Shown piece after piece: positions 13,970 to 38,922 of a stretch of DNA of 38,922 nucleotides. How positions within the stretch are numbered: position 1 is the stretch's first letter; the number at the start of each line of letters is the position of its first letter. Source of the stretch: a virus; the IMG/VR virus record IMGVR_UViG_3300030055_000017, positions 1 to 38,922 of that record; one strand, written 5' to 3'. Both the position numbers and the translations under genes were made by a program. The notes under the pieces are model-generated. The model was given only the letters and a program-made list of their open reading frames with translations, was not told where the DNA came from and ran no database searches.

Positions 13970-13998
13970 AGATAAGGTTGATTGTAAAGGAAATAAAA

Positions 13999-14709
13999 AT
14001 GTTTAATGAATCAAAATACACAAAATATTATTTTAATATAATTGAGCGAGCAAAAATTAGAAATAAACCTTGCTTAGCTGAAAAACATCACATAATACCC
14101 AAAAGCATGGGTGGTACTGAAACTGTCTATTTAACAATGAGAGAACATTTTATTTGTCATTTGCTTTTGGTAAGAATGTTAGTGGGTGATAATCAGAGGA
14201 AAATGTTGTGGGCATTACATAGAATGCTATTCAGTAAAAATGATAAACAGCAGAGATATATTCCATCATCGAGGACATATGAAACATTTAGAACACGTTT
14301 CGTAAAGATGCTATCGGTACCCAAATCTGAATTACATAGACAAAAACTTGCAGACCACTTAACAATGATGAACAAAGATCCATCGATGAAAGCTAGACGT
14401 CTTCAAACAAAGATTGATAATAATACCCTAATGCATTCAGAAGAGACAAAATCAAAAATATCTTCAACTGTCAAAGCATCAATGTCAGCACCGGAAATAA
14501 TCGAAAAAATGAAAATATCAAGTGCTAAGAGATGGGCAAATAATAACGAAAGACAGAAAATAGCTGATAAAAATTCAAAAACCTTTACGTTAACACACAG
14601 ACTAACAGGAGAATCAACTACTGTAACAAATCTTGCTAAATATTGTAGGGATAACAGTGTCAGTTATGGGAAAGTACAAGTAGATTTTATTGTAACCCGA
14701 CTAAATTAA
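13999..14709 (+). CDS. HNH homing endonuclease
   Basis: 236 residues from the ATG at 13999, chosen for its AAGG site and because the frame opening at 13978 is a TTG inside the leader. The HNH motif is EKHHIIPKSMGGT near residues 27-39, followed by YLTMREHFICHLLLVRM, the usual phage HNH nuclease pattern. The C-terminal half has the NUMOD3-like HSEETKSKISST and a NUMOD1/helix-turn-helix-like end (VTNLAKYCRDNSVSYGKVQV) for DNA binding. It is a free-standing mobile gene on the strand opposite to the operon, inserted between two genes, with its own late-type promoter (13962-13969). Confidence 0.9.
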   Translation: MFNESKYTKYYFNIIERAKIRNKPCLAEKHHIIPKSMGGTETVYLTMREHFICHLLLVRMLVGDNQRKMLWALHRMLFSKNDKQQRYIPSSRTYETFRTRFVKMLSVPKSELHRQKLADHLTMMNKDPSMKARRLQTKIDNNTLMHSEETKSKISSTVKASMSAPEIIEKMKISSAKRWANNNERQKIADKNSKTFTLTHRLTGESTTVTNLAKYCRDNSVSYGKVQVDFIVTRLN

Positions 14710-17102: not shown

Positions 17103-17867
17103 ATGTATTATGTTTATGGGTATTTCAATCCACTTAAAATATCATTGCTTTCAGATATAGGGTTTGAACCCTTTTATATTGGTAAAGGAAAAAATAATAG
17201 AGCTATATTTCACATGTTTGAATCACATTTAATTAAAGATACTAATAAACATAAAGTAAACATCATAAGAAAAATAAAATCAGCTAACCTTGAACCCATA
17301 ATTAAAATATTGTCTACATTTGAGAATGAAGATCAAGCCTTCACAGAAGAAAAAAGACTAATAGCCGTTTATGGTAGAAGTGATTTAGGATTGGGACCAT
17401 TATCAAATTTAACAGATGGTGGAGAAGGTTCTTCTAATAAAATATTTTCAAATGAATATCGTAAAAAATTAAGTGAAGGAACGAAGCGTGCAATAAAAGA
17501 AGGTAAATTAAATTCCAACTTAGAAGCATTTAAAAATTCAGCAAAGGGTAAAAAACAATCAGCCGAACATATAACTAATAGAAATGAATCAAGAAAAGGT
17601 TTTTTATATTCCAAAGAATCAAAAGCTAAGATGTCTGTTTCTCAACAATTAATACGTCAAACACCCGAATGGAAAGAAAAAGCATCTAATGCACAAAAAG
17701 GAAAAATTCATAGTTTAGAGCATATTGAAAAATCTATCATTAATAATCCTAGAGTACATCCTATTGAATATTTAGGAATAAAATATAGAAGTTTAAATTA
17801 TGCAGTAACAATTACAAAAACAAACATTCACAAAATTAAAAAAGATCCTTCTTTTAAAATGTTGTAA
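17103..17867 (+). CDS. GIY-YIG homing endonuclease (Seg-like)
   Basis: 254 residues. The N-terminal catalytic domain has YYVYGYFNP for GIY and FYIGKGKNNRAIFH for YIG with Arg and His following. FTEEKRLIAVYG carries the conserved glutamate, and LSNLTDGGEGS closes the domain. NUMOD3-like repeats follow (NEYRKKLSEGTKRA, SKESKAKMSVSQQL), then a DNA-binding C-terminus. The composition is AT-richer than the neighbours. It is inserted between uvsY-side genes and uvsW on the opposite strand, with a perfect late octamer at 17073-17080 and an AGGAG site. Confidence 0.93.
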   Translation: MYYVYGYFNPLKISLLSDIGFEPFYIGKGKNNRAIFHMFESHLIKDTNKHKVNIIRKIKSANLEPIIKILSTFENEDQAFTEEKRLIAVYGRSDLGLGPLSNLTDGGEGSSNKIFSNEYRKKLSEGTKRAIKEGKLNSNLEAFKNSAKGKKQSAEHITNRNESRKGFLYSKESKAKMSVSQQLIRQTPEWKEKASNAQKGKIHSLEHIEKSIINNPRVHPIEYLGIKYRSLNYAVTITKTNIHKIKKDPSFKML

Positions 17868-21180: not shown

Positions 21181-21188
21181 TATTTATA
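21181..21188 (-). promoter_or_regulatory. Late promoter octamer (TATAAATA) of gene 32
   Basis: Perfect minus-strand consensus 71 bases before the gp32 ATG, directly downstream of an 11-bp tandem repeat. T4 gene 32 likewise has a late promoter in addition to earlier ones. Confidence 0.7.
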
Positions 21189-21410: not shown

Positions 21411-21929
21411 TTAATTCCCTTTAACGTTGATCAATTCATCAACCTCTGTGCCAACAAAGAATTCCTGTTGACGCATGTACATCTCACGAACGATACCTGC
21501 TGGAACACATTTATCACCACGAGTCTTCTGACGATCAATAGCAACTTGAAGTGGGACATTAACCTGAACACCGATCACTTTAAAGTTTTTCGATTTCAAA
21601 TCTTGTACCCAACGAGCACGAGACTTAACAGTCAGATTAGTGTTATCAACAACCACAACATCAGCCTTAAGAGCAGTTGCCCAATGTTCATTCACCCATG
21701 AATCAAACTGTTTGGGGTTGTTGTTAGCATACTCAAAAGCTTTCGCATATGTCATTTCTTCATCTGACAGATCCAAACATTTAGTCACCGATTTAAACAG
21801 GCTAATTCGGCAATCATCCAGAGAAAAAACCTTGACAGTTTTACCAGGATATTCTTCAAGAAGAGGCTTGATAAAAGTAGATTTACCAGCACCAGAAACA
21901 CCCGCAACAATATAACCAATCTTGCTCAT
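21411..21929 (-). CDS. 5'-polynucleotide kinase, kinase domain only (PseT-like)
   Basis: 172 residues from the ATG at 21929 (GAGGA upstream). The P-loop is AGVSGAGKSTF (9-19), the substrate Asp-Arg is SLDDCR (37-41), then VVDNTNLTVKSRARWV (94-108). The lid is DRQKTRGDKCVP with KIVREMY-type spacing behind it. This is the order in the kinase domain of T4 Pnkp, but the C-terminal 3'-phosphatase domain of T4 Pnkp is absent. It phosphorylates 5'-OH ends of RNA or DNA. The HD protein two genes upstream may supply the missing 3'-end healing. Confidence 0.85.
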   Translation of the reverse strand: MSKIGYIVAGVSGAGKSTFIKPLLEEYPGKTVKVFSLDDCRISLFKSVTKCLDLSDEEMTYAKAFEYANNNPKQFDSWVNEHWATALKADVVVVDNTNLTVKSRARWVQDLKSKNFKVIGVQVNVPLQVAIDRQKTRGDKCVPAGIVREMYMRQQEFFVGTEVDELINVKGN

Positions 21930-21953
21930 CTTCAATCCTCAATTTAAAAGAAT

Positions 21954-22800: not shown

Positions 22801-23466
22801 ATGTTAAATCGTCAATGTCCTAATTGTAGTAATATTATATCATATAAAAATAAACGATGTTTTAATGATGCTACAAAATTAAACAATGTGTGTAAATCTT
22901 GTTCAACTAAAAAGATGCATTCAGAAAATCCATCAAAAATGAGTGGTAAAAATAATCCAATGTTTGGTACTAGTTGGAAAGAAGTATGGAAAACAACAAT
23001 GTCAAAAGAAGAATTTGATTTTAAAATTGAAAAATTAAAATCACAAAAGTCAATTCAGAATAGTGGAATAAACAATCCAATGTTTGGAAAACCATCACCT
23101 AATGGTAGTGGACGAGGTAGGGGTGGCATTTGGAAAGGAACACATTTTAGAAGTTTATTAGAATTAGCTTTTCTTGAAAAATATTTTAAAGAACACAATC
23201 AACTTCCACTAAGTGCCGAGAGAAAAGAAAAATCTATTAAATTAAAATCTGGAAAAACATATTTTCCAGATTTTGAAGGTCATAATGAAATAATCTATGA
23301 AATAAAACCCTCAAGAATGATTCCATTAAATATTGAGAAAATAGAAGCAGGATTAAACCATTATGGAAAAAAATTTAAAATTGTGACAGAAAAAGAACTA
23401 CCAAATTATAACAATATACATTTGAGATTAAATGAATTCATAGATTTGAAGATGCATAAAGAATAA
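22801..23466 (+). CDS. Homing endonuclease with zinc ribbon, NUMOD3 and PD-(D/E)XK domain
   Basis: 221 residues. The N-terminus has a CPNC...CKSC zinc-ribbon pattern (residues 6-9 and 31-34). Two NUMOD3-like repeats follow (SGKNNPMFGTSW and SGINNPMFGKPSPNGSG). The C-terminal domain has FRSLLELAFLEKYF, then YFPDFEG and IIYEIKPSRM, i.e. the E...PD...E-x-K active-site order of PD-(D/E)XK nucleases. It is a free-standing mobile gene opposite to the operon, with a perfect late octamer at 22767-22774 and an AAGGAGAG site. The specific homing family is not identified. Confidence 0.82.
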   Translation: MLNRQCPNCSNIISYKNKRCFNDATKLNNVCKSCSTKKMHSENPSKMSGKNNPMFGTSWKEVWKTTMSKEEFDFKIEKLKSQKSIQNSGINNPMFGKPSPNGSGRGRGGIWKGTHFRSLLELAFLEKYFKEHNQLPLSAERKEKSIKLKSGKTYFPDFEGHNEIIYEIKPSRMIPLNIEKIEAGLNHYGKKFKIVTEKELPNYNNIHLRLNEFIDLKMHKE

Positions 23467-24392: not shown

Positions 24393-24725
24393 TTAGTCCA
24401 TCCGTGCTTGGGCGTAACATTTTACCCCAGCAGATTTCAACACATCAGCAAATGCACATGCACCAGCAAATTTTGCATCCATCCACTGGGTATGGTTGCC
24501 ACTTGGGTTGTAAACAACGAATCCGCCCTCATATTCGTCGGTGTGCCCTCGCTTCATTTCCTTCAAAGCTTTCACAAATGTTCCACGTGCTGGTTTAATC
24601 CTCACCCAGGCGAATCCACAAGGGTACCATGTTTCAGGATTTTCAGTGATCATTTTTTCAGTTGCGTCTTTAGCAGCTTGAAATGCCTGTTCAATTGTAT
24701 CCTTGATATACTTAATATCTGTCAT
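24393..24725 (-). CDS. Conserved hypothetical protein
   Basis: 110 residues. The order WYPCGFAWVRIKPARGTFV, then FVVYNPSGNHTQWMDAKFAG, AFADVLKSAGV and RMD at the end looks like a conserved phage/bacterial small protein family of unknown function. The start has an AAGGA site 6 bases upstream and overlaps the preceding gene by 14 bases. Confidence 0.8.
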   Translation of the reverse strand: MTDIKYIKDTIEQAFQAAKDATEKMITENPETWYPCGFAWVRIKPARGTFVKALKEMKRGHTDEYEGGFVVYNPSGNHTQWMDAKFAGACAFADVLKSAGVKCYAQARMD

Positions 24726-26910: not shown

Positions 26911-28482
26911 TTAAACAATCATGAATGGCATTGGTTCACCATCAAATTGATCAGCATTTTCTTCTGGTAAAATATCAGAATCTGGATCAACTGATTCATA
27001 AACTAATTTTCTTGCAGCATCATCATATGAAGCTACTCGTGCTAACACTTTCATAACAACTGCCATTGCCATGATCGCATCATCTGTACAACCAGCTTTA
27101 GCTTGGTAGGTATTATTAGTTGCAACGAAGTTCTGTAATTCAAATAGTAATGCAGCAGAATTAATTTTGATACCGCCACTTCCTCTTTCTAATAAATTCT
27201 TAAGTTGCATACATGCTAGAAGTTTAGATTTTCCAGTTGTATAACAGCCAAGTCTATCATTTGAACGGCTTTCATTGAACAATTCTACACCATCAAGGTA
27301 AATACCACCGTCAGCTGAATCATCATTCTGAATCATCGCAACCAATGCTTCACCGATACCATTACGTTCAAATGACCAAATGATTTCAGCTTTACCCCTA
27401 TTAGCATCGGGTTGACGCAACAGTTTAAACAACCATTTTAATTTCGCATAAATTAATGGTATGTGAACCGTGTTGCTTCTAAATTCTGCTACTTGTTCCA
27501 TCGATGGATATTCGATAACTTGGATAACTGTAAAGTCCTTACCATTACCAGTAGCAGGGTCAACACCGATCAAGTATGATTTTCCTCTACCACCAAGATT
27601 TTCTTTCCAGAAACTGAACCCCATGTTCTGTGTAATAGGAGGAGTAGATTTAATATACGAAAGTTTCAATGAATCCATCAACAATGCATCTGATGAAATG
27701 AACTCACATAAAACTTCTTGTCGTAAACCGATTTCACCCAATTCACCACGCATCTGTTTGATGTAATCTTCTTTTCTATCTGGATGTAAATGCCAAGGGA
27801 AGAATACTGGTTTGAAATTATTCTCACCAGAATTTGCGCCTCTCCAAAGAGTAGAATATAAATCCGTATCACCATTAGGTGTTGAAGAAATAATAGCAGA
27901 TCCACCAGTAGAAAGAGTTGGAGACAATGATCTCCACATTTCAGTCTGAATACGAGGTGAAATAAAAGCTAATTCGTCAAGATACAACTTTGATATTGAG
28001 AGACCACGACCGGTTTTTTCTGTTGTTGCTTCAGATTTTATTCTTGAACCATTATCAAATTCAATATTGTGCTTGTTGTAGTATTTGCACCCTGCTTTCA
28101 GCCAATGTGGTAATTCTTCATATGCAAATCGTATACGATCCATAATTTCCATAGCATGGCTGTTATTTTTAGAAGCAATAATGTCTGTTTGATCTCTATG
28201 AAACATTGCATGCCATAACAAAAACATGGAAATAGTTTGCGTCTTTCCCATCTGACGGGAAATAAGTGCAATAACTCTAGTATTTTCCTGACAACTTCTT
28301 ATGAGTTCTTCTTGGAATGGATAAAGATCAAATAAGATTTTACCGCGTGTTGGATGTTGAAGCCAGACATAATTTCTAATGAAATATACTGGATCATTTT
28401 GACATTTAATTAATTCTTGAATAAGCTCTGGAGTATATTCAGATTCAGTAAATGCGCGTTTAATTAGTTCATTGCCTGCCAT
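26911..28482 (-). CDS. 17: Terminase large subunit (gp17 type)
   Basis: 523 residues. ATPase motifs: Walker A SRQMGKT (75-81), Walker B LYLDELAF with Asp169-Glu170, and coupling motif SSTPNG (200-205). The RNase-H-fold nuclease has Asp309 (GVDPATGNGKD), Glu373 (SFERNG) and Asp468-Asp469 (GCTDDAIMA). It cuts concatemeric DNA and pumps it into the prohead. The protein is complete. A perfect late octamer and a structured leader precede it. No gp16-like small subunit is recognised next to it. Confidence 0.96.
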   Translation of the reverse strand: MAGNELIKRAFTESEYTPELIQELIKCQNDPVYFIRNYVWLQHPTRGKILFDLYPFQEELIRSCQENTRVIALISRQMGKTQTISMFLLWHAMFHRDQTDIIASKNNSHAMEIMDRIRFAYEELPHWLKAGCKYYNKHNIEFDNGSRIKSEATTEKTGRGLSISKLYLDELAFISPRIQTEMWRSLSPTLSTGGSAIISSTPNGDTDLYSTLWRGANSGENNFKPVFFPWHLHPDRKEDYIKQMRGELGEIGLRQEVLCEFISSDALLMDSLKLSYIKSTPPITQNMGFSFWKENLGGRGKSYLIGVDPATGNGKDFTVIQVIEYPSMEQVAEFRSNTVHIPLIYAKLKWLFKLLRQPDANRGKAEIIWSFERNGIGEALVAMIQNDDSADGGIYLDGVELFNESRSNDRLGCYTTGKSKLLACMQLKNLLERGSGGIKINSAALLFELQNFVATNNTYQAKAGCTDDAIMAMAVVMKVLARVASYDDAARKLVYESVDPDSDILPEENADQFDGEPMPFMIV

Positions 28483-28537: not shown

Positions 28538-28545
28538 TATTTATA
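28538..28545 (-). promoter_or_regulatory. Late promoter octamer (TATAAATA) of terminase
   Basis: Perfect minus-strand consensus 56 bases before the terminase ATG, in the gap after the 84-residue gene. It fits late expression of the packaging motor. Confidence 0.75.
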
Positions 28546-28569: not shown

Positions 28570-28824
28570 TTACAGAACCCTAGATTTTGGAATTTTAATT
28601 TTCTGTGCGAACTCAATGTTGCGTCTTATAGTGACATGACGTAAAAGTTCTTTTCTTAGAAATTGAATTTGTGATTGAGTTGGTTCAAATTTATCTTCAG
28701 TCCTACATCTACTAACTTCAGTCTGAACCATAAATTCGATTACGTCATTATAATGGTTGACCCGCTCTGATGTTAGATTAACAAACATCCTAACAGGTTT
28801 ATTTTCATCATTGTGATAATTCAT
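28570..28824 (-). CDS. Hypothetical helical protein upstream of terminase
   Basis: 84 residues, highly charged and helical (TEDKFEPTQSQIQFLRKELL, RHVTIRRNIEFAQKIKIPK). It overlaps the ART-like gene at 28808 by 17 bases and is the last gene of the array before terminase. Position would suit a small terminase subunit, but it is far shorter than gp16 and shows no similarity I can see. Function is unknown. Confidence 0.68.
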   Translation of the reverse strand: MNYHNDENKPVRMFVNLTSERVNHYNDVIEFMVQTEVSRCRTEDKFEPTQSQIQFLRKELLRHVTIRRNIEFAQKIKIPKSRVL

Positions 28825-29617
28825 GATAAGCTGCTCTAATTTGTTTCCACAAACTCTCTGTCATAATGATACAGTCGCCTTCAACCCATACTTCTGAACT
28901 TGAGTGGTGCGGCATTGTTGATGCAGTAACCCATGTGTGTCCGGTTTCATCTGGGCTATAAGCTTTATCAATACTTTCAAGAAAATTATTATGTGGGTAT
29001 TTATCTGTTCCTTCTTCCCCATAATTCCAGATTTTATTGAATTTTCTACTTAAAGACGGTATTGTATCAACATCTTTATCAAATTTAATAAATGACTCCC
29101 ATGTATGATCAATCATATTTTCATCAACCATTTCTTCAAAAAATTTATTGATAGTATTTATCTGTCTTCTAACGCCAAAAATATCTATACGAGTATCCCA
29201 CATATCATCAAGATTAACAAAACCTATTTTAGTATCATCGTATGGAATAATCGCATGTACAATTTCATCACTAAAATCTTCTGCTCTACTTCTTCTAGTA
29301 GAAGCAATTAATGATTTGCTTCGTTTTGGGAAATCTTTTCTACTGGGTGTATTGTCTAATATCAATGTATAGAAATTACTAGTGTTCTGACTCTTTCGTG
29401 TTGACAGTCTCGTGTCTAAAGAAACAACTCCAGTGTCAGATAATACTTGAGTTAATTTTCTATCACTTCTGTAAATTGGTCTGTTCTCATGAAGCATCCA
29501 TAGAGCATTTTTGCAATGTGCATTGAGTAATCTTATAGCCTTATCAACAACAATAGTTTGATATTTTGGTTCTGAATCAACGGGCCTTTCTTGTAGGAAC
29601 TGTTTAAAATTAAGCAT
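28808..29617 (-). CDS. Putative packaged ADP-ribosyltransferase-like protein, copy 1
   Basis: 269 residues. The leader MLNFKQFLQE ends in L-x-E, a likely prohead-protease cut after residue 10. The body has WMLHENRPIYRSD (Arg50), TRKSQNTSNFYTL, PKRSKSLIAST and IIPYDDTKIGFVNLDDMWDT. The end is SEVWVEG (Glu242) and SLWKQIR. R...S-T...E order is that of R-S-E type ADP-ribosyltransferases, and T4 Alt is a packaged ADP-ribosyltransferase. Here Gly after Arg is replaced by Ser. Family membership with the next two genes is certain by eye; enzymatic function is inferred. Confidence 0.8.
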   Translation of the reverse strand: MLNFKQFLQERPVDSEPKYQTIVVDKAIRLLNAHCKNALWMLHENRPIYRSDRKLTQVLSDTGVVSLDTRLSTRKSQNTSNFYTLILDNTPSRKDFPKRSKSLIASTRRSRAEDFSDEIVHAIIPYDDTKIGFVNLDDMWDTRIDIFGVRRQINTINKFFEEMVDENMIDHTWESFIKFDKDVDTIPSLSRKFNKIWNYGEEGTDKYPHNNFLESIDKAYSPDETGHTWVTASTMPHHSSSEVWVEGDCIIMTESLWKQIRAAYHELSQ

Positions 29618-30398
29618 TTAAATCCTCACGCATTTGGTTCCATACGGATGGCGCAATCATTAATATTTTTCCACCTATCCACACCTCACTAGGTGTGCCA
29701 TCATATTCATAGTTTGCTGGGGTGAAATGTTCTGGTCCAATTTTTCTATAATCATATGCACGTTTTATTTCTTCTAAAAATGAATATCTATATGATTCTG
29801 CATCATAAATTTTCAATTCTTTAAGGAAAAAAGAAAAATTCTCAAAAGCTTCTTCATCATCATTTTTCAATTTTTTATCAAATTCAACAAATGAATCCCA
29901 TGAAACATCAGACAATTTTAATTCCCTAAAATATCCATTTATGGAAGATATTCTACGAGACTTTCCAAAAAAATCTATTGATAAATCCCAAAAATCCTCT
30001 CTTCCCACGTAACCTATTTTAGCATCATTAAACGGAACAACAACAAAATAATTATAGTCATCAAAATAACCTGCTGTGACTGCGCTAGTTGAACAAATGA
30101 ATGAACGTGATCTTTTAGGATAGTCTTTATTAACCGGATTATTATCTAATAGTACGGTGTAATAATTAGAAGTGTTTTGACTTTTTCTTAATGTTGCAGA
30201 AGTATCAACGGTGAAAGCATCAGCATTTTTAAAGCGCACGCCTTTATCTCCTCTATAAAAAGGAGTATTATTTTTAAGCATCCACATTGATTCACTACAG
30301 TGAGTTTTCATGATAGTAAGAATGTCATCCTCAACTTCACTATAATTTGGTTCTGAATCTATTGCGCGTTCATGGAGGAACTGTTTAAAATTAAGCAT
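29610..30398 (-). CDS. Putative packaged ADP-ribosyltransferase-like protein, copy 2
   Basis: 262 residues with the leader MLNFKQFLHE, differing by one residue from copy 1. The catalytic pattern is complete: TPFYRGD (Arg49), LRKSQNTSNYYTV, PKRSRSFICSTS, VVPFNDAKIGYVG, and SEVWIGG (Glu238). The middle region (residues about 150-220) has diverged from copy 1. It overlaps copy 1 by 8 bases. It reads as one of five tandem or near-tandem duplicates, with leader and active-site segments conserved and the rest free to vary. Confidence 0.8.
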   Translation of the reverse strand: MLNFKQFLHERAIDSEPNYSEVEDDILTIMKTHCSESMWMLKNNTPFYRGDKGVRFKNADAFTVDTSATLRKSQNTSNYYTVLLDNNPVNKDYPKRSRSFICSTSAVTAGYFDDYNYFVVVPFNDAKIGYVGREDFWDLSIDFFGKSRRISSINGYFRELKLSDVSWDSFVEFDKKLKNDDEEAFENFSFFLKELKIYDAESYRYSFLEEIKRAYDYRKIGPEHFTPANYEYDGTPSEVWIGGKILMIAPSVWNQMREDLNA

Positions 30399-31374
30399 TA
30401 AATTTTTCTCTTATTTTATTCCACATATCTACTGTCATTAATAGAACTCTACCTCCAACCCAAACTTCAGAGTTTTTAGAGTAACTTTTTATAGATGAAG
30501 TGTTTCCTTTTATGAATCCTGTTGAGCTTGGTGCATATCCTTTATTTATTTCTTCAATGAAAGAACGTTTGAATTGTTGTGCTTTAATTTCACCAAATGC
30601 ATTTTTAAAATCTTCAAATGCCGCTGATTCATCATTTTTTAATGCCTTATCAAAATTAATGAAAGATTCCCAATTCGTGTCAGATAATCCAATATCTTCA
30701 TAAGAATCATTTACATCAGCTACATCTCTCAATGATCCAAATACTCTTATATTTATGTCCCACATATCTTCACTACCAACAATACCTATTTTCGCATCAT
30801 CAAATGGGATACACACCATTAATTTTTCATCATTTCCACTAACAAACTTTCTAGCATATCTAAGGTCATTAGACATTATAAATGAACGTGAACGTTTAGG
30901 GAATCCATTCATACTTGGAATATTATCAAAAATTAGAGTATAGTAATTAGATGTATTTTGACTGACTCTTTCTGTCTTAGAAGAATCCATTATTCCAAAA
31001 CCACTATGAATACTTAAATCATGTGCATAACCACCTTTATCACCTCTATAAAAAGGTCTATCCTGTTCTAACATCCAAATAGCATTTTTACAATGTGTGT
31101 TTAACGTTTCGACTGCGGCTTCAACATCTAAATGTGTTAACGTTGGGAATTTATCTACAGGTTTTTCATATAAGAAATCCTTAAAAGATAAGCTCTCTTT
31201 TAAACCCATCATTTTCTTTGCGATGCCCATTGTCAATGCCCAATATTTAGCATCATTTTCATCCACGTCATATTCTTTTTTGACAATATTACTAGCAACA
31301 TGCCAGTAATGTTCTGCTTGTCCGAATGAAATTTTTGCTTTCTTCGAAAGATGTTTAAGGGCGGTATCTGGCAT
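30391..31374 (-). CDS. Putative packaged ADP-ribosyltransferase-like protein with extra N-terminal domain, copy 3
   Basis: 327 residues. It starts with a helical module of about 55 residues (LKHLSKKAKISFGQAEHYWH and DAKYWALTMGIAKKMMG) that other copies lack. Then comes ESLSFKDFLYE, the shared leader in internal position. The body has RPFYRGDKGG (Arg110), RVSQNTSNYYTL, PKRSRSFIMSN, IPFDDAKIGIVGSEDMWD and SEVWVGG (Glu303). An alternative start at Met55 or Met56 (31212/31209) would place the leader near the N-terminus as in its relatives. The extra module is a pattern seen in phage structural proteins. Confidence 0.78.
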   Translation of the reverse strand: MPDTALKHLSKKAKISFGQAEHYWHVASNIVKKEYDVDENDAKYWALTMGIAKKMMGLKESLSFKDFLYEKPVDKFPTLTHLDVEAAVETLNTHCKNAIWMLEQDRPFYRGDKGGYAHDLSIHSGFGIMDSSKTERVSQNTSNYYTLIFDNIPSMNGFPKRSRSFIMSNDLRYARKFVSGNDEKLMVCIPFDDAKIGIVGSEDMWDINIRVFGSLRDVADVNDSYEDIGLSDTNWESFINFDKALKNDESAAFEDFKNAFGEIKAQQFKRSFIEEINKGYAPSSTGFIKGNTSSIKSYSKNSEVWVGGRVLLMTVDMWNKIREKFNA

Positions 31375-31375
31375 A

Positions 31376-31594
31376 TTAACTTCTCTTTAGTTGTTTCCAG
31401 ATTTCATTTGGCATAGTTAATAGAACTTTTCCAGAAGTATTTTTAATCGCTATCTGTTCATTCTCGTTTAACTCGATTATGAAATCTCCAGCTTTTCCAA
31501 CTACTTTAGGGAAATCGCTATCTGATGGTCTATCAGATAGCTGCCCGTCATCTTCCTTAAGAGCATTAAGATTTGTTAGTTCACGCAGTAGCAT
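31376..31594 (-). CDS. Mini-protein resembling the tail of the ART-like family
   Basis: 72 residues. The end (GKVLLTMPNEIWKQLKRS) parallels the C-terminal strand and helix of the ART-like copies (GGRVLLMTVDMWNKIR, CIIMTESLWKQIR). The start is MLLRELTNLNALKED, possibly a variant leader with L-K-E. It may be a remnant of a former copy or a separate short packaged protein. AAGGAAG is its ribosome site, and it overlaps the upstream gene by 14 bases. Confidence 0.68.
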   Translation of the reverse strand: MLLRELTNLNALKEDDGQLSDRPSDSDFPKVVGKAGDFIIELNENEQIAIKNTSGKVLLTMPNEIWKQLKRS

Positions 31595-32714
31595 TTTTCT
31601 TCCTTATGTAAAATTCATTTCCGCCATGATTTGGAGATTCCACTCTAGCAAATCTACTATTACCATTTGCAAAAATACTAATCAACCATTTACCAGCAGC
31701 ACTATTGATAAACTTTCGTTGTTCTTCTCTTGCACGATCAAGAGTTGCATCACTTACGGCTGGAATCTTTTCAATGTCGCCACCAAGCAAAGCATGAACA
31801 TGTGTTTCAACTTCTTGTTTAATTGACATTTCAGATATTACCATTTCGAAACTTAAAGACTTATGTTCTTCCATAAATTTTGAACAAGCTTCTTTGGTAC
31901 CAGTGTAGAAAACTTTTCTATCATCTTTTCCTGCTAAAACAACTTCCATTATCGCTGGTAATTCTTCTTCAGTGATAGTCACATTTTCTTTAATCAACTT
32001 AATATTTTTTGCCTTGACTTGAATAGATTTAGCACCAAAATTTGGTTTGTCAGATTTTTCATCAAAGTCGTAATCAACAGTAAATGTCTTATCATTCTTT
32101 GATTCACCGTTTCTTATTTCAGCGATAACACCTTCTTTACCTATTACATGCTTTTCACCAGAAACAATCTTCACCTTTGCCCCAATTTTATAAGGTGAGA
32201 AACCTTCTTCAACATTTAAAAGACCTTTTTTCTTTAGGTCTTTAATACGTTGTTGCTGTTGAGGCATTGACATATTAGTTTTGTGGAAGTCACCATTACG
32301 TTTGAAGGTTTCAGCATCAGCTTTATCGCCGTGCTCTCTAGACTTATTTAGTTCTTTTTCTTCTGTTTCATCATCATTGTTTTTCTGAGCATCTAGAGCT
32401 TTATTAAGATGTCTAGTTGCTTGGAAACCATTGTATGATCCTTTTACTTTGCTAGTAAAATCACCAAAGAAACCTTCAAATATTTCTCCACCATTGCGAT
32501 CAGTAAACTTTCCTACTTGTTTACGACCGTTGTATGCTTCCCATTGCTTAGAACTAATCTGTTCTACTTCCATATCTGGATACTTTTCTATAAGTTCTTT
32601 GAACCATCGATTAAATACATTTTTATAATTTGCAGCATTCCACTCTCCAGCATAATTTACTTCTTCGCTAAGAATTTGGGCTTCAATAAATTTAATTGCC
32701 TCTTTATAATTCAT
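31581..32714 (-). CDS. Putative virion-associated protein with KOW-like segment
   Basis: 377 residues. The start MNYKEAIKFIEAQILSE holds an L-x-E cut-like site. A polar linker rich in Asn, Asp and Lys follows (residues 100-140). A beta segment KIGAKVKIVSGEKHVIGKEG resembles a KOW/SH3-like fold, and the rest alternates charged helices and strands. GGAGAATAG is the ribosome site. It is next to the inserted homing endonuclease and shares style with the 465-residue gene. The virion role is inferred from context and composition. Confidence 0.72.
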   Translation of the reverse strand: MNYKEAIKFIEAQILSEEVNYAGEWNAANYKNVFNRWFKELIEKYPDMEVEQISSKQWEAYNGRKQVGKFTDRNGGEIFEGFFGDFTSKVKGSYNGFQATRHLNKALDAQKNNDDETEEKELNKSREHGDKADAETFKRNGDFHKTNMSMPQQQQRIKDLKKKGLLNVEEGFSPYKIGAKVKIVSGEKHVIGKEGVIAEIRNGESKNDKTFTVDYDFDEKSDKPNFGAKSIQVKAKNIKLIKENVTITEEELPAIMEVVLAGKDDRKVFYTGTKEACSKFMEEHKSLSFEMVISEMSIKQEVETHVHALLGGDIEKIPAVSDATLDRAREEQRKFINSAAGKWLISIFANGNSRFARVESPNHGGNEFYIRKKNATA

Positions 32715-33363
32715 GTCTATTCTCCAAATTGTTTTTTCTTAATCTCATCGTATTACTAATTTTTAAACGTGTCTCTTCGGACATAGTTCTACCTTTTCCA
32801 GATAAACCAATTTTTAAACGTGTCTCTTCACTTCTAATTTTCCCTCTATTTGATTCTCCGCGCTTTTTATTTGTTTCTTCAGAATATTTTCTTCCTTTTT
32901 GTGAAGCACTTTGTTTTATTTTTTCTTCTATTGGTTGAATTCTTCCTATATTTTTCAAAGAAATTTTTAATGCCCTTGCACGTTTTTCTTCTGTTGTTTG
33001 ATTTTTATATGCTACACTCATATTCTTCCGGGCTTGTTCAGTATGAACTCTCCCCTTATTAAGTGAGGGGGCAAATCCTCCATCTAATCCGTTTTCATCT
33101 TTGTGATTTGCCCAATCTGCAGATTCAACAATATTTGCTTCTTTAGAAAAGAATGTTGCAAAATCAACTAATGTTTCTTTATCATAAAATTTTTCTGTCC
33201 AAATTGTAGAAAAATTACGGCCATGTAATTTTAAATGATTTTTCCAATGTAAACCTGAACCTAAATATTTATGCGGATCCTTTTGAACAGTTTTTCCGAA
33301 ATATTTAAGCCCCGTCACATTATGACGTTTAATATAAAGCCAAGTTGGTTTAAAATCAATCAT
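32704..33363 (-). CDS. GIY-YIG homing endonuclease in the operon direction
   Basis: 219 residues. The catalytic domain has WLYIKRHNVTGLKYFGKTVQ (GIY-like LYI and YIG-like YFG) and the DPHKYLGSGLHWKNHL segment typical of phage GIY-YIG homing enzymes. ESADWANHKDENGLDGG closes it. The second half is a row of NUMOD3-like repeats (EEKIKQSASQKGRKYSEETN, EETRLKIGLSGKGRTMSEET). Unlike the three plus-strand homing genes it lies in the operon and overlaps both neighbours (11 and 8 bases), so it uses their transcription. Confidence 0.9.
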   Translation of the reverse strand: MIDFKPTWLYIKRHNVTGLKYFGKTVQKDPHKYLGSGLHWKNHLKLHGRNFSTIWTEKFYDKETLVDFATFFSKEANIVESADWANHKDENGLDGGFAPSLNKGRVHTEQARKNMSVAYKNQTTEEKRARALKISLKNIGRIQPIEEKIKQSASQKGRKYSEETNKKRGESNRGKIRSEETRLKIGLSGKGRTMSEETRLKISNTMRLRKNNLENRHEL

Positions 33364-34753
33364 TTAATACATATCCTTTATCAGCGTTTTGTATCCAAAC
33401 TCCATATGAACGATCTTCACCTGGAACTTCTGCAGAGATAGTATCCTTATCACCTTCCATACGACCTTTGAATCTCATCTTTTTAGCTTGAGCTGGATAT
33501 GAATTCAAGACCGCTTGTTTCCAATCATCAAAATCTGTAAAGCCTTTTGCTTCTTTAATCTGCTTCTTAACGGTGACAGTAAATTCGGTGTCATTGTGAC
33601 GCTTAACTGAAAAACCAGCAGCTCTAAGAAGTTTCATTAAATCTGTACCCGCTCCTTGATCCACAGCAGTGAAATCAATTTCGTCTTCGGTACTGTCTTC
33701 ATCAAAATCGACTGGATAACCACAGATAACGTTTCTTTTACTAGCACTAAAGTGTTTACCACCATTAAATGCTTCTAGATTGTCAAGTGCTGATAAAGAA
33801 GTTTTTACCTTGAAGTCTGCTTCATTTACAATTTTTACATGCTCGATATCATCAGGATAAACCAACACTTCTCTAGTAGAATCATCCAATTTCACAACTA
33901 GTGCTTTTCCCTCTCTACCTATAACTGATCCTAGCCCTTTACTTTTTTGTTCAGAACTGTTCCAATGTTTCACATCCAATTTAACACGATCACCTTTTTT
34001 CAAAGTAGAAGCACTTTCAGTCAATGAAACACCGTGATCTGATAAATGTTCTTCAGCTTCTTCAGCTGTGTCAAATGGTCCTTCAACTTCAAAGTAACTG
34101 TAATCTTTTGATATCCATGACATAACGTCATGTGGTGTCAAATAACTCATATATGAACCACCTGGCCAACGATAATCTGGTTCACCCTTAACAGTGGATT
34201 CTTGCCATTTTCCATTATCACTCTTTGAGACCATACCGATCCATCCGGTATTTTTACGTTCATCATAAATTGCTACATAAAATTCTTCATCTTCTTTGTC
34301 TTCATTACCATCTTCATCTCCTTCTAAAGTAACATCAGAAGAATGGAAGGAATGTGTTCCTTTATTTCCAAACAATTTAACAACTACGAACTTCTTATCC
34401 ACACCAAAATCTGTAATTTCACCAACCGAACCTTCAAATTCAATATTTCCACCAGACACAACAACTGTATCACCAACATCCAATTGGTCTGCAGTAATGC
34501 CATCACCTTCATGACTTTCTTTCAATTTACCTTTGTTGTATGAAGCGACTGTTTCATCATCGTCATACCAATCGGAAACATAAATCTTACCATCACGCTT
34601 GTCTTTGTTGATGTGCTTTAAAGAACATTCTTTTGCACTTAAGGTACGAGCAGAAGTATGCGCTTTCAACAGATCGGCATTCTGTTGATTTGAATCAGAT
34701 AATTTTGATTCTTCGATATTTGATACTTGAAGCAATGATTGTAGTAATTTCAT
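33356..34753 (-). CDS. Acidic putative virion protein with two KOW-like segments
   Basis: 465 residues, very acidic. The start MKLLQSLLQVSNIEESKL looks like a head-protein leader. Two beta segments, VGDTVVVSGGNIEFEGSVGE plus FHSSDV (about 92-140) and KKGDRVKLDVKHWNSSEQKS (from about 250), are KOW-like. The VVVKLFGNKGTHSFHSSDV phrase is one I associate with virion proteins of T4-like marine phages. A late-type octamer (34784-34791) lies 31 bases upstream. Function is structural or internal, by inference. Confidence 0.75.
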   Translation of the reverse strand: MKLLQSLLQVSNIEESKLSDSNQQNADLLKAHTSARTLSAKECSLKHINKDKRDGKIYVSDWYDDDETVASYNKGKLKESHEGDGITADQLDVGDTVVVSGGNIEFEGSVGEITDFGVDKKFVVVKLFGNKGTHSFHSSDVTLEGDEDGNEDKEDEEFYVAIYDERKNTGWIGMVSKSDNGKWQESTVKGEPDYRWPGGSYMSYLTPHDVMSWISKDYSYFEVEGPFDTAEEAEEHLSDHGVSLTESASTLKKGDRVKLDVKHWNSSEQKSKGLGSVIGREGKALVVKLDDSTREVLVYPDDIEHVKIVNEADFKVKTSLSALDNLEAFNGGKHFSASKRNVICGYPVDFDEDSTEDEIDFTAVDQGAGTDLMKLLRAAGFSVKRHNDTEFTVTVKKQIKEAKGFTDFDDWKQAVLNSYPAQAKKMRFKGRMEGDKDTISAEVPGEDRSYGVWIQNADKGYVLND

Positions 34754-34783
34754 ATTATTTTAGCTCGATTAAGTTAGATAGAT

Positions 34784-34791
34784 TATTTATT
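34784..34791 (-). promoter_or_regulatory. Late-type promoter octamer (AATAAATA)
   Basis: Minus-strand AATAAATA 31 bases before the 465-residue acidic virion-like gene; the bases that follow (ATCTATCT) are the same as behind the endolysin octamer. Confidence 0.5.
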
Positions 34792-34804
34792 GAAAATAGT
34801 AGAA

Positions 34805-35110
34805 TCAGCGTGGATCTACATTTAAATGATAAACTTTTGCAACGATTTTTCCTAATCCTGCTATTTTATGAAGAGTTAATCGCTTAGTTACTTTATCTGA
34901 AAGATCTTTCTGGAGTCCTTTAGGGCGTTTGTTGTCATTACAATCAGCAACAATTTTAACAGTTGATACTCCATCAGTATTTGATTCAACGTTGACACTC
35001 ATAACTTTACATGAAATAAGTTCTTCTTCAGCTATATGATGAATGAAATCCATGGCCTGTTCATCAGTAACACATTGCTTGCTCATAAATTGTTTAAAGG
35101 TTGTTTTCAT
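34805..35110 (-). CDS. Small protein with variant capsid-targeting leader
   Basis: 101 residues. The leader MKTTFKQFMSK matches the array motif except that the expected cut-site Glu is Lys. The body has a strand (VNVESNTDGVSTVKIVADC) and a basic C-terminal half (LQKDLSDKVTKRLTLHKIAG). It overlaps the next gene by one base. No fold is recognised. If the leader functions it would not be cut at the usual position. Confidence 0.72.
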   Translation of the reverse strand: MKTTFKQFMSKQCVTDEQAMDFIHHIAEEELISCKVMSVNVESNTDGVSTVKIVADCNDNKRPKGLQKDLSDKVTKRLTLHKIAGLGKIVAKVYHLNVDPR

Positions 35111-35730
35111 TATAAGGTTCTCATTTTTTCTCTGATCGCGTTTAATATCTTACCATCTGATATCAGATAATAGTATTCACATTTGAACATAACCTCACAG
35201 TCTATTTTGTTTATTAAAGGCTGTGTAATATCCTGGGTGAAAACATAACCATACTCGTTAACGAAATTTTTCTTAATGTTGTTTGAAAGTTCTAATTTTT
35301 TTTCAGAATTTTTAATATCATCGAAATCGTAAACGCCAGATGTCAATTGTTCAATAAGCTCGGTTGCATCATGTACTTTAGGTGAATAGACAAAATCGAA
35401 ATCATTATCAATCGGGAATAATGCTCCAACATTTCCATACATACTAGCTTGTCCCGGCTGAAAACAACCAAATTGCCAATTTCTAGGATTGATACCATAT
35501 ACTTTGTCAAAATTAAAATTCATAGCATTATGAAATTGCAAAGGTGTATCTCTTGGTTTTGAACGTTGACTGAATTCTATTTTAGCCCATTTCCATAATG
35601 AAGGATGCCCCTTATACAAAAATGCTCCAGCTCTTTTGTATTGTTTGAGAATGGGGTAACATTCATCTAAGAATTTTTCTAAATCAAATTCATCTAGATC
35701 TTGTTCTGATATAAACTGTTTAAATCTCAT
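35110..35730 (-). CDS. Putative packaged protein, paired family copy A
   Basis: 206 residues with leader MRFKQFISE. The body shares with copy B: DLEKFLDECYPILKQ, RDTPLQFHNAMNFNFDKVYG, NPRNWQFG, ALFPIDNDFDFVYSPKVHDA and CEVMFKCEYYYL. The DTP-x4-H-x-A-x-N-x2-FDK and GxxRxW patterns are the family core. GGAG is the ribosome site. I recognise the pattern as recurrent in T4-like marine phages but know no function. A site equivalent to the Leu-Arg-Gly of copy B is LYKGHP here. Confidence 0.75.
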   Translation of the reverse strand: MRFKQFISEQDLDEFDLEKFLDECYPILKQYKRAGAFLYKGHPSLWKWAKIEFSQRSKPRDTPLQFHNAMNFNFDKVYGINPRNWQFGCFQPGQASMYGNVGALFPIDNDFDFVYSPKVHDATELIEQLTSGVYDFDDIKNSEKKLELSNNIKKNFVNEYGYVFTQDITQPLINKIDCEVMFKCEYYYLISDGKILNAIREKMRTL

Positions 35731-36377
35731 AATGACTCCATAAGCTGTCGCATTTCTTCACTATTCCATACATCACCAGATTGGTTGAATGCATAATATC
35801 GTTCACATTTAAACATGATTTCAGCACCATAGTTAATACACTTTACTAAATCAGTATTAAATGTCCAAGAAACTTCATCTAATTGCTTAACCAGATATTT
35901 TGTTGCAAGTTCAATAATTTCATCATAGCTAAATGAACGTGATACATCTCTGTTTTTTATATATTCACGCTCTTTACTGAGAGCTACTGTCAGATCATAA
36001 AAACGATCATTGATGTCCGTGCAGCTCAACCACTCAAACTTTCCAATCGGGAAAATAATATTTGGGCCTGTCAAGCCTGAATAAATTTCAGCAGAATCAT
36101 GTCTTCCAGTAGCAAACATCCAATCTCTAGCTTTAACTCCAAATTTCTTATCAAACAGTTCGTTGAATGCACGGTGTGCAGCTATTGGAGTATTTCTGGG
36201 TCCATCTCTTGGGACCCATTTTGCAATTTCGAAATCTGGGTTTTTATCCTTTGAACCCCTAAGCATCAATGCACTACCACCAGTTCCCTTTAGCTCACCT
36301 AAAATAAAAGAACAATCCTTTTTGAATTTTTCTAAATCGAATTTTGATTCTTCTTGAAGGTACTGTTTGAATCTCAT
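35727..36377 (-). CDS. Putative packaged protein, paired family copy B
   Basis: 216 residues from the ATG at 36377 (overlapping the upstream TGA; the frame opens at a GTG at 36389). The leader is MRFKQYLQE with an L-x-E site. It has LMLRGSKDKNPDF, RNTPIAAHRAFNELFDKKFG, KARDWMFATG, IIFPIGKFEWLSC and AEIMFKCERYYAF. These align with copy A along the whole length, showing a tandem duplication. Function is unknown. Confidence 0.76.
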   Translation of the reverse strand: MRFKQYLQEESKFDLEKFKKDCSFILGELKGTGGSALMLRGSKDKNPDFEIAKWVPRDGPRNTPIAAHRAFNELFDKKFGVKARDWMFATGRHDSAEIYSGLTGPNIIFPIGKFEWLSCTDINDRFYDLTVALSKEREYIKNRDVSRSFSYDEIIELATKYLVKQLDEVSWTFNTDLVKCINYGAEIMFKCERYYAFNQSGDVWNSEEMRQLMESL

Positions 36378-37108
36378 TGTTTGTACCACCCTGCAATTTT
36401 ATTTTCTAAGGTTTCCATTGTCACTATACCAGGAGATAGATATTTTAATTTCTCTTCCTTCATTTTTTCGAGATTTCTTTTGCCAACAATATTTTGAACA
36501 GGCTCATTGAAGAATGATTGTGCTGATTTGAAAGCTTTTAGCATTTCTACATTTGATAAATCATCATTGTCATTGTTGATAACCTTATAGAAGTTAACTT
36601 CCGATTGTAGGTACTTAGCATTTTCTTCACTTAGCTTAAATACTGCTTCAATAAAATGTTCATCTACTTCTCTACCAATTTTTGAAGCTCGTTCTATTGC
36701 ACGTGCTTTAGCAGTTTCTAAACTGGTACGTACGTAAACAACACCAACATCATACCCCAATGATTTCAAAATACCCATTCTATGTTGAATGTTTGAAATA
36801 TCATTAGATGTTCCATCAACGAATAATGGCAACATACTGTTGATATAATTTTGAAGAGATGTTTTTGTAATATTGTGAGCAGAATCTTGAAATATTTCAA
36901 CCCAGTTTTTTGAGTTAACCATTAATCCGATTTTTTTACTTAAAAATTCAGATGCTCTATCAGTGTTGATAACCTTTGGCGATATTGATCCTACCATCTG
37001 TTTAACGGTATAAGATTTTCCGGCACCAGGTATACCAACAACAAAAAGGGCTTTTAAAATGCCCTTGTCCTGAATACTTTCTTCGATAAATTGTTTAAAT
37101 GTTTTCAT
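36374..37108 (-). CDS. Putative packaged zeta-toxin/PNK-like P-loop kinase
   Basis: 244 residues. The leader is MKTFKQFIEE, nearly the T4 internal-protein peptide. The kinase domain has VVGIPGAGKSYTVKQM (P-loop 25-32), INTDRASEF (substrate Asp-Arg), LFVDGTSNDISNIQHRMGIL (Walker B region) and VYVRTSLETAKARAIERASK with GREVD as lid. This plan is that of zeta-toxin and polynucleotide-kinase-like enzymes. The substrate is unknown; zeta toxins phosphorylate UDP-activated sugars, PNKs act on 5'-OH ends. Delivery with the phage DNA is inferred from the leader. Confidence 0.8.
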   Translation of the reverse strand: MKTFKQFIEESIQDKGILKALFVVGIPGAGKSYTVKQMVGSISPKVINTDRASEFLSKKIGLMVNSKNWVEIFQDSAHNITKTSLQNYINSMLPLFVDGTSNDISNIQHRMGILKSLGYDVGVVYVRTSLETAKARAIERASKIGREVDEHFIEAVFKLSEENAKYLQSEVNFYKVINNDNDDLSNVEMLKAFKSAQSFFNEPVQNIVGKRNLEKMKEEKLKYLSPGIVTMETLENKIAGWYKQ

Positions 37109-37992
37109 AATCTCATACCATTAAATAAAATTTGTATATTGTGAGAGATATTTACACCAGAATATTCGATATCTGGTAATAATTCTTTCATAGCAGCTAA
37201 ACTGATAACTAATGCGCGACCGGAAAACCAAAGTTCACGCTCTGAATAAGAAGATATGCTATCAACATTGTATTTATAAGTCTCAAGACCTAATGATTCT
37301 GGAGACATGAAAAAGCTGCATATCGCATCAAATCTACTCATACCAACACTTATGTATTTTTCAATTTGTTTTATTCCTGCTTCAATATCGTGTACGAGTA
37401 ATGCTTGTAGAAAATTATCAAAACCGTTTGGTGACATTTCTGACATAGCATGATTCAGCGATGCTGATGTCATATCTTCAATACCCAAACTTAAATACTG
37501 TGAAAAAAGTATTCCTATCTTATGTGAAAAATCTTTAACTGTTCGTGATCCAAATGAAGTTTTAGCATTCCCTTCAACACGTTTAAACAACAAATCACTT
37601 TTATCTGCTACAGCAATAATCTGTTGTCTTCTTGGAAAGATAACATATCTAGTACCAAATTCATCAGCTGTATCAAAATCATTTGTACAGATCAATGATT
37701 TGCTTCTTGATGGATAGTCTTTCATAAACATTGAATTATCCATCATTATCTGATACACGTTATTTGTGTCTTTTGATTTTCTTTCACCCTGTGAAGCATC
37801 AATAAAGGAAATGTCTTGAGATGGTGGAGTACTAAATCCTCTAAAGATTAAATTATTATGTTCTAAAGCATATTTGGCATTTAATAATATCCATTCAAGT
37901 GCATGTTTTCTTGAGGCATCATTATCTACAGCCCAACCTTTTTTAACATGAGGTGGTAAATCATCTTCATACAGAAATTGTTTGAAGTTCAT
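37105..37992 (-). CDS. Putative packaged ADP-ribosyltransferase-like protein, copy 4 (divergent)
   Basis: 295 residues from the ATG at 37992 (the TTG at 38013 opens the frame). The leader is MNFKQFLYE. The family signature persists: NNLIFRGFS (Arg51), ERKSKDTNNVYQIMMDNSMF, YPSRSKSLICTND and ELWFSGRAL (Glu253). The middle has diverged greatly from copies 1-3 and gained a helical insert (about 150-230). It overlaps the GNAT gene by 4 bases. Gly after the Arg is kept, as in copies 2 and 3. Confidence 0.76.
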   Translation of the reverse strand: MNFKQFLYEDDLPPHVKKGWAVDNDASRKHALEWILLNAKYALEHNNLIFRGFSTPPSQDISFIDASQGERKSKDTNNVYQIMMDNSMFMKDYPSRSKSLICTNDFDTADEFGTRYVIFPRRQQIIAVADKSDLLFKRVEGNAKTSFGSRTVKDFSHKIGILFSQYLSLGIEDMTSASLNHAMSEMSPNGFDNFLQALLVHDIEAGIKQIEKYISVGMSRFDAICSFFMSPESLGLETYKYNVDSISSYSERELWFSGRALVISLAAMKELLPDIEYSGVNISHNIQILFNGMRL

Positions 37993-38378
37993 TTTGAATG
38001 ATCCTTGTTCCAAAACAATTTACCCATACCTGTTTGAAGTTTTGATGGTGCTATATCATTGCCTAACTCTCTAGCAAATTTATACATTTCTGTTGCTATT
38101 CCTTTTCTACGATATGCAGGTTGAATTGATAAATCAAGTGCTTCTAGATTACCATCTTTATTTTCAAAGTTGACCCAACCAATTTCAGTAGTTCCTTTTT
38201 TAGCAACTATTCTAAACTGTTCACTTTTGAATCCTGGCTTTGCGCCATACCCTACCCACCCACAAGTAGCTACTAGGGTAAATTGATCGTCTAATATTTT
38301 CTTCTCTTCACGAAAATCTGTAAAGAAAATTTTACTATTGACTTTTTCTCGTAAGAAGTCTTTAAAGGTTTTGTGCAT
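37989..38378 (-). CDS. Putative packaged GNAT acetyltransferase
   Basis: 129 residues. The leader is MHKTFKDFLRE with an L-x-E site. The remainder is a small GNAT fold: TTEIGWVNFENKDGNLEALD (beta strands), LSIQPAYRRKGIATEMYKFA (motif A, RRKGIA acetyl-CoA loop at 90-95), and a final FWNKD. The substrate is unknown; delivery in the head would make it an immediate host-modifying enzyme. A late-type octamer (38403-38410) lies upstream. Confidence 0.8.
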   Translation of the reverse strand: MHKTFKDFLREKVNSKIFFTDFREEKKILDDQFTLVATCGWVGYGAKPGFKSEQFRIVAKKGTTEIGWVNFENKDGNLEALDLSIQPAYRRKGIATEMYKFARELGNDIAPSKLQTGMGKLFWNKDHSK

Positions 38379-38401
38379 TTGTTATCATTCTAATCAAAAG
38401 A

Positions 38402-38922
38402 TTATTTATCTGTTTTTTCACTTTCATCATCTTTATCCATCATTTGAAACATCGCATCAAACATAGTGAGGTTAACCAAGTATGATTTACCAGATAACCA
38501 ATATTCTGTTCCATTAACAAGTTCATATCCTGCTGTTTGAATTTTAATAGGCAAAGAATCAGGAGTCATTATTAAATTTGATAACTCTGTAAATCTTGTG
38601 TTAGGTTTAAAACCACGAATGGCTTTCAAAGCTGAATCATTCGTAAGATGTAATTCTTCAGTAAGATGTTTTTCAAACTGATAAGATGTAAGTTGAGACA
38701 ACAATTCATCACAAACACTTGCATCAGTAAATTTTGGAATACGTTCATGCTCAACATATTGAATCACTGATCCTATTCCTATTCCTAAATCTTCCAAATC
38801 TAAAGTATGAGTATTAAATCTGGATCTAACTGCATATCTCAAAATGTCTTTGACACCAGGAACACATGCAATTTTAACACCGTTAAATGGCATTACAACA
38901 AACAGATCTTCTTGTGAACTAG
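38402..38922 (-). CDS. Putative packaged ADP-ribosyltransferase-like protein, copy 5, 5' end cut by window edge
   Basis: The frame is open to the window edge through the codons before the Met at 38893. LFVVMPFNGVKIACV matches the VVPFNDAKIGYV strand of copy 2, so that Met is internal. The C-terminus has TEYWLSGKSYLVNLTMFDAM, the counterpart of SEVWVGG and the following strand and helix, keeping the conserved Glu. The leader and the Arg and Ser motifs lie outside the window. It ends with an acidic tail (DKDDESEKTDK). Confidence 0.75.
   Translation of the reverse strand, partial: SSQEDLFVVMPFNGVKIACVPGVKDILRYAVRSRFNTHTLDLEDLGIGIGSVIQYVEHERIPKFTDASVCDELLSQLTSYQFEKHLTEELHLTNDSALKAIRGFKPNTRFTELSNLIMTPDSLPIKIQTAGYELVNGTEYWLSGKSYLVNLTMFDAMFQMMDKDDESEKTDK
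38403..38410 (-). promoter_or_regulatory. Late-type promoter octamer (GATAAATA)
   Basis: Minus-strand GATAAATA 25 bases before the GNAT gene, followed by ATCTT. Its position at one of the few gaps in the array suggests an internal late start. Confidence 0.45.

Follow-up and report, generated by a model that had tools for sequence, protein, structure and literature searches.

The viral contig IMGVR_UViG_3300030055_000017 of IMG/VR, a ~39-kb fragment whose 38,922 bases are called the window here, encodes a run of minus-strand genes that share a short leader peptide of the type FKxFLxE. The open reading frames (ORFs) of this run lie upstream of the gene for the terminase large subunit and adjoin it (Table 1). 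The terminase is ~40% identical to those of jumbo myoviruses such as PA5oct, XacN1, and Atu_ph07, and the window additionally encodes UvsX-like, gp32-like, and UvsW-like genes. The leader very probably represents a T4-type capsid targeting sequence (CTS) that belongs to an enlarged system of internal head proteins, dominated by paralogs that resemble ADP-ribosyltransferases (ARTs).

Leader peptides in the window and in related genomes

The motif F-K-x-[FY]-[LI]-x-E is located at or near the start of eight ORFs within 28808–38378. All nine peptides listed in the original prediction are found on the minus strand, and most of them are the N-termini that they were taken for. SLSFKDFLYE in the ORF at 30391 is internal (residues ~62–71 of the longest ORF), and the 55-residue extension in front of it (MPxTALKHLxKKA...) precedes the leader in conserved form in L006, L007, and L011. 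MRFKQYLQE and MNFKQFLYE start at internal ATG codons, and their ORFs open further upstream with GTG/TTG. The canonical leader is absent from four ORFs of the span, those at 31376 (72 residues), 31581 (377 residues), 32704, and 33356 (465 residues).

Table 1. Leader genes of the window and further features named in the text. Positions are those of the window.
Feature	Position	Strand	Remarks
Leader MLNFKQFLQE, ART-like body, 269 residues	28808..29617	-	phrog_12810; AlphaFold model; ART chains among the best structural matches
Leader MLNFKQFLHE, ART-like body	29610..30398	-	Close paralog of 28808; profile searches
ART-like body, leader SLSFKDFLYE behind a 55-residue extension, 327-residue ORF	30391..31374	-	Alternative start at internal ATG 31209
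377-residue back part of the gene whose front half is 33356	31581..32714	-	Internal SFEMVISE at the junction
Homing-endonuclease-like ORF	32704..33363	-
465-residue protein starting MKLLQSLLQVSNIEE, possible second leader type	33356..34753	-	Front half of a gene of 1325 residues in L005
Variant leader MKTTFKQFMSK, 101 residues	34805..35110	-	Cut position lacks E; homologs begin with MKLSELFE or MRFKQFLE
Leader MRFKQFISE, ART-like body, second subfamily	35110..35730	-	K replaces the conserved R of "RG"
Leader MRFKQYLQE (ATG 36377), ART-like body, second subfamily	35727..36389	-	AlphaFold model; best structural match Arr
Leader MKTFKQFIEE, zeta-toxin/PSTK-type P-loop kinase	36374..37108	-	Pfam PF06414
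Leader MNFKQFLYE (ATG 37992), ART-like body	37105..38013	-	Profile searches
Leader MHKTFKDFLRE, GNAT acetyltransferase	37989..38378	-	Pfam PF00583
C-terminal part of another ART-like paralog, truncated by the contig end, no leader seen	38402..38920	-	Profile searches
Terminase large subunit	26911..28482
Leaderless relative of the 36374 kinase	21411..21935
Homing-endonuclease-like ORF	13978..14709	+
Homing-endonuclease-like ORF	17103..17867	+
Homing-endonuclease-like ORF	22801..23466	+

The sharing of the leader within the window is confirmed. At the rate of a broader motif inside phage ORFs (8.9e-5 per residue), 0.0085 leader matches are expected for the 12 genes and eight start offsets tested and eight are seen (P ~7e-22, with the motif defined on these same genes). 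Given this definition, independent support is provided by the concentration of the motif at N-termini in other genomes. The 343-kb relative G002 has 18 N-terminal versus 13 internal matches in 221,137 residues, and G005 has 10 versus two. Strict motif counts amount to 18 in G002, nine each in G003 and G005, four in G006, and one each in G001, G004, and T4. As predicted, the set can be larger than that of T4, since the 18 strict leader genes of G002 compare with a single one in T4, or with two (IPII and IPIII) when the same scan is run on T4 with the looser motif.

Likeness to the T4 capsid targeting sequence

Mutation mapping of the T4 internal protein IPIII (MKTYQEFIAE) assigned targeting to residues 4 and 7 and cutting to residues 8 and 10, with gp21 cleaving after L/I-x-E; an altered residue 10 can stop cutting yet permit targeting (PMC9026906). 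The proposed likeness to this CTS extends to all four mapped positions in MKTFKQFIEE (F4, F7, I8, and E10), and the other leaders have the same spacing. Two aromatics three residues apart (F and F/Y) are present in 9/9 leaders, and [LI]-x-E directly follows the second aromatic in 8/9. The ninth leader, at 34805, has M-S-K at this place, so that its protein, by analogy, may be targeted but left uncut.

A gp21-type protease (Peptidase_S77) is encoded by 5/6 related contigs. It has the motifs GELNHP and GVSSRG in common with T4 gp21 and carries L-I/Y-E near its own start. In the major capsid proteins of the relatives, YLKE, HLQE, HLKE, or YLAE is aligned to the FLTE column of T4 gp23; the capsid gene of the window phage itself lies outside the fragment.

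The T4-type late promoter TATAAATA is positioned 20–130 nucleotides before ORFs of at least 100 residues in 5/7 cases in the window, 9/10 in G005, and 13/24 in G003; other A/T octamers reach 17–35% in these three sequences. The promoter precedes the genes of the protease, the gp32, and the terminase, the gene immediately before the capsid gene, and the leader genes at 39785 in G005 and at 24583 and 168135 in G003. In the window, minus-strand sites are found at 28545, 63 nucleotides before the terminase gene, and at 21188, 78 nucleotides before the gp32-like gene. Two of the three homing-endonuclease-like ORFs on the opposite strand also have TATAAATA 31–34 nucleotides upstream.

A parallel array is present in Atu_ph07 (MF403008, 39484–50592). 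Its genes gp53–63 belong to the same ART-like superfamily as the window proteins, the last one being fused to a zeta-toxin-type kinase. Ten of them start with M[RK]W.[QD]L.E and gp63 starts with MRLFQLLE; the front of the leader differs and L-x-E is retained, which would be expected with the cut site in the tail of the peptide. The capsid protein of Atu_ph07 has PLME at the site aligned to the T4 cut. The coding sequences 31–76 of this phage yielded 29 virion proteins by mass spectrometry, only two of which were predicted to be structural (PMC6102473), and the gp53–63 array lies inside this cluster, for which the virion data hold as a whole and not gene by gene.

Further leader-like starts are scattered over other proteins and phages. 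Another possible type of leader (MKL.ELLE, MKLSELFE, or MKLxQELLxxSE) precedes related bodies in L007 (3930–4340), L006 (4059–4361), L017 (8071–9805), and the window ORF 33356, and resembles the start of T4 Alt (MELITELFDE). A 106-residue protein starting MKSFKQFISESVNIAGDF (L048 13772–14092, 135 cyanophage records) carries the same leader as the window proteins; it is encoded near the terminase gene of Synechococcus myoviruses and annotated as hypothetical. Its identification (MKSFKQFISE) as a "virion protein" of S-SCSM1 was rejected, as that label belongs to neighboring proteins. In T4 (112677–114440, plus strand), the CTS-like peptide MLLEFKQFLYEASIDEF starts from an ATG inside the UvsW frame, close to its end. 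In PA5oct (MK797984, 260677–262099), the neighbors 0380 and 0381, which are marked as detected by electrospray tandem mass spectrometry (ESI-MS/MS), begin with MRLNEINLIE and MKILEFNLTE. PA5oct 0205 also begins with a peptide ending in L-x-E (21 such marked genes were looked at), and given the shortness of the motif these starts are only a hint.

Bodies behind the leader

The bodies were originally described as unrelated, which holds for some of them. Iterated profile searches (phrog_12810, 15932, and 11975) unite 28808, 29610, 30391, 35110, 35727, 37105, and 38402 in one superfamily that comprises six of the eight leader proteins and the truncated ORF at 38402, so that the leader on these bodies partly reflects shared ancestry; the kinase and the GNAT protein are separate. 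Enzyme-like bodies had been anticipated correctly in that Pfam assigns the kinase at 36374 to PF06414 (55.8 bits versus a cut-off of 22.3, E 5e-15, Walker A GIPGAGKS) and 37989 to PF00583 (24.9 bits versus 20.7), with the ART-like family resting on weak structural matches. A relative of the kinase without the leader is encoded in the window as well, and the leader thereby distinguishes members of one family. The leader also stands on nonhomologous bodies in other genomes, a point that the original prediction proposed to check. About a dozen body clusters with the leader occur in the related contigs, including an amidoligase-like protein (PF12224) and several without a family, with the reservation that the clusters are split by a sequence threshold and may include distant relatives. 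The leader genes of G002 likewise carry several unrelated bodies.

The superfamily is probably ART-like, as judged from structure models and sequence motifs. The AlphaFold model of 28808 has a predicted local distance difference test score (pLDDT) of 87.9, with leader residues 1–7 below 50, and that of 35727 has a pLDDT of 92.8 with a low-confidence leader, consistent with a loose end. Foldseek gave no significant match in the PDB for either model. With a second aligner, the best match of the 28808 model is BC2332 (Z 6.6, 132 residues, 3.7 Å), and further ART matches are tankyrase 2 (Z 4.4), CteC (2.9), TccC3 (2.7), and a guanine-specific ART (2.7). The 35727 model matches best with the rifampin ADP-ribosyltransferase Arr (Z 6.1, 94 residues, 3.5 Å), and KptA of the ART superfamily reaches 3.8. 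All of these Z scores are below 8 and weak taken alone, and the ART matches stood out only in this second-look aligner. Both models point the same way, and they share homologous alignments and are hence not independent. An order like R...S...E can be recognized in the sequences, consisting of [YF]RG, a stretch S-x-S/S-T, and an almost invariant E (E242 in 28808, E186 in 35727); in fam1, these elements lie on strands. The R is lost in 35110 and in some relatives, and with its K for R 35110 may be inactive.

Two ORFs of the array are parts of one gene. The homing-endonuclease-like ORF at 32704 splits a gene that is single in L005 (1462–5439, 1325 residues). The C-terminal domain of 31581 occurs in relatives as a stand-alone protein with the leader, and the internal stretch SFEMVISE|MSIKQ corresponds to the place where stand-alone homologs begin with MKITFKEFLTE|MAIRQQ (G005 52342). 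This suggests that 31581 is a fusion that may still be cut at its internal leader-like stretch.

Among the six full-length ART-like window proteins, the leader core keeps 4–6 of seven residues (57–86%), versus body identities down to 10–13%. The leader codons differ synonymously among the window genes, which argues for selection on the protein, and not recent copying, as what maintains the peptide. Shuffling was part of the original prediction, and the window shows no sign of it in a recent form. Across phages, a dozen or so unrelated bodies do have the leader and a few orthologs have another one. Orthologs of the GNAT protein and of 34805 in other phages begin with MKLSELLE or MKLSELFE, and leaders can therefore be exchanged or can diverge.

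Proposed role of the leader and its alternatives

In the proposed mechanism, the tagged proteins would be made together with the head genes, and the leader would dock them in the scaffold core of the prohead. Subsequently, the phage's gp21-type protease would cut behind the E of [FY]-[LI]-x-E; the bodies, freed of the leader, would remain with the DNA and be delivered with it into the next host. There, the cargo set would act at the start of infection on host or defense proteins, similar to T4 Alt and IPI–III. With ART-like paralogs, a zeta-toxin-type kinase, and a GNAT protein as cargo, the set probably modifies such proteins. The sequences themselves show the leader, its spacing, and the body families, and in relatives the protease, the capsid site, and the late promoters; from these we infer docking, cleavage, packaging, and injection as well as the enzyme activity and its targets.

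Several points weigh against this reading. The support for packaging in the window phage is drawn from sequence, and the virion data of Atu_ph07, which would apply by analogy, speak for a cluster only. A scan for FKxFLxE leaders in RaK2, HTVC008M, and PA5oct, all of which have the protease, gave 0, 0, and 1 (weak) N-terminal matches. The gp21-type protease gene that the original prediction proposed to look for, found in most of the related contigs, is not on the 39-kb window (PF03420 searched), an absence explained by the contig being a fragment. The final E is missing from the leader of 34805. With respect to the ART-like family, sequence searches against Pfam, PDB sequences, NCBIfam, and PADLOC gave no useful match, the fold rests on structural Z scores below 7, and 35110 lacks the R.

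The alternatives differ in how much of the leader they explain. The leader could be a docking peptide that brings proteins to the scaffold or another structure and is never trimmed. Targeting and cutting are separable in the T4 CTS, the aromatic positions are conserved too, and 34805 has no E; this alternative is nevertheless unlikely, because almost all sequences of the ART-like alignment have the E and Atu_ph07 keeps L-x-E despite the different front half of its leader. It is quite improbable that the leader is an ancestral N-terminal helix of the ART-like family that is simply inherited and plays no part in targeting. The membership of six of eight leader proteins and the truncated ORF in one superfamily would fit, but the kinase, the GNAT protein, the amidoligase, and other unrelated bodies bear the leader as well, the leader is far better conserved than the bodies, and it is of low confidence in both AlphaFold models. 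Equally small is the chance that the leader directs its proteins to the tail, the membrane, or a replication compartment. Some jumbo phages form compartments, and the capsid location in the window phage is deduced from sequence, but the leader matches the T4 CTS and the cut site of the capsid proteins, and the leader genes adjoin the terminase gene and have late promoters. A signal at the nucleic acid level, such as a translation enhancer, would suit the leader's place at the very start of most ORFs and is negligible as an explanation, since synonymous codons vary and the leader of 30391 and its relatives lies 60 residues behind the ORF start.

The reading as a T4-type CTS can be compared with known systems. 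IPI–III of T4 likewise combine a leader of ~10 residues, aromatics at the two targeting positions, and [LI]-x-E with unrelated bodies and a gp21-type protease (here in relatives). The differences are the number of strict leader genes, which reaches 18 per genome in relatives, and the dominance of one paralog family among the enzyme-like bodies, and no body homology between the T4 internal proteins and the leader proteins was seen. T4 Alt shares a short N-terminal propeptide ending in E, the probable ART fold, and, by analogy, the expected modification of host proteins at entry. Alt is one large protein, whereas the window has many small tandem paralogs without detectable sequence similarity to known ART families. 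The internal proteins of T-even phages are diverse, with only the CTS conserved, according to passages in PMC3012670 (citing Repoila 1994) and PMC12373910; the leaders described here differ in occurring in jumbo phages, in paralog arrays, and in a different version in Atu_ph07. In P1, an N-terminal peptide of DarB suffices to send cargo into the phage head (PMC9024508). P1 belongs to another clade than the window phage, and the likeness meant here is one of principle. ART, GNAT, and other domains were predicted in myovirus heads by Iyer and colleagues as head-packaged ARTs and polyvalent proteins (excerpts of PMC9503650 and PMC7824862). Packaging of ARTs in heads has been widely proposed (PMC9503650). 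The systems of Iyer and colleagues were recognized via fusion to head proteins or via context, and the excerpts describe no leader code. The literature searched gave no account of such leader arrays for jumbo phages. The principle is thus already known; what looks new is the scale, the ART arrays, and the variant in Atu_ph07.

A broader view, for and against which we see even chances, is that in this clade of jumbo phages the head is a delivery vehicle in which a leader code, [FW]-x-x-[FYL]-[LI]-x-E or near variants, lists all injected proteins. The code would be tuned to the core and protease of each phage, and tandem duplication would have created arrays of ART-like effectors with different host or defense targets.

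Most genes of jumbo phages are without known function, and the proteins that enter with the DNA are usually unknown. With the leader as a marker, the question of the jumbo-phage injectome would turn into a sequence search plus one proteomics run. For protein delivery, the leaders would add to the available capsid-loading tags. Provided that the ART-like proteins are active, the injected stock of protein-modifying enzymes would be much larger than that of T4 and a likely source of counter-defense proteins.

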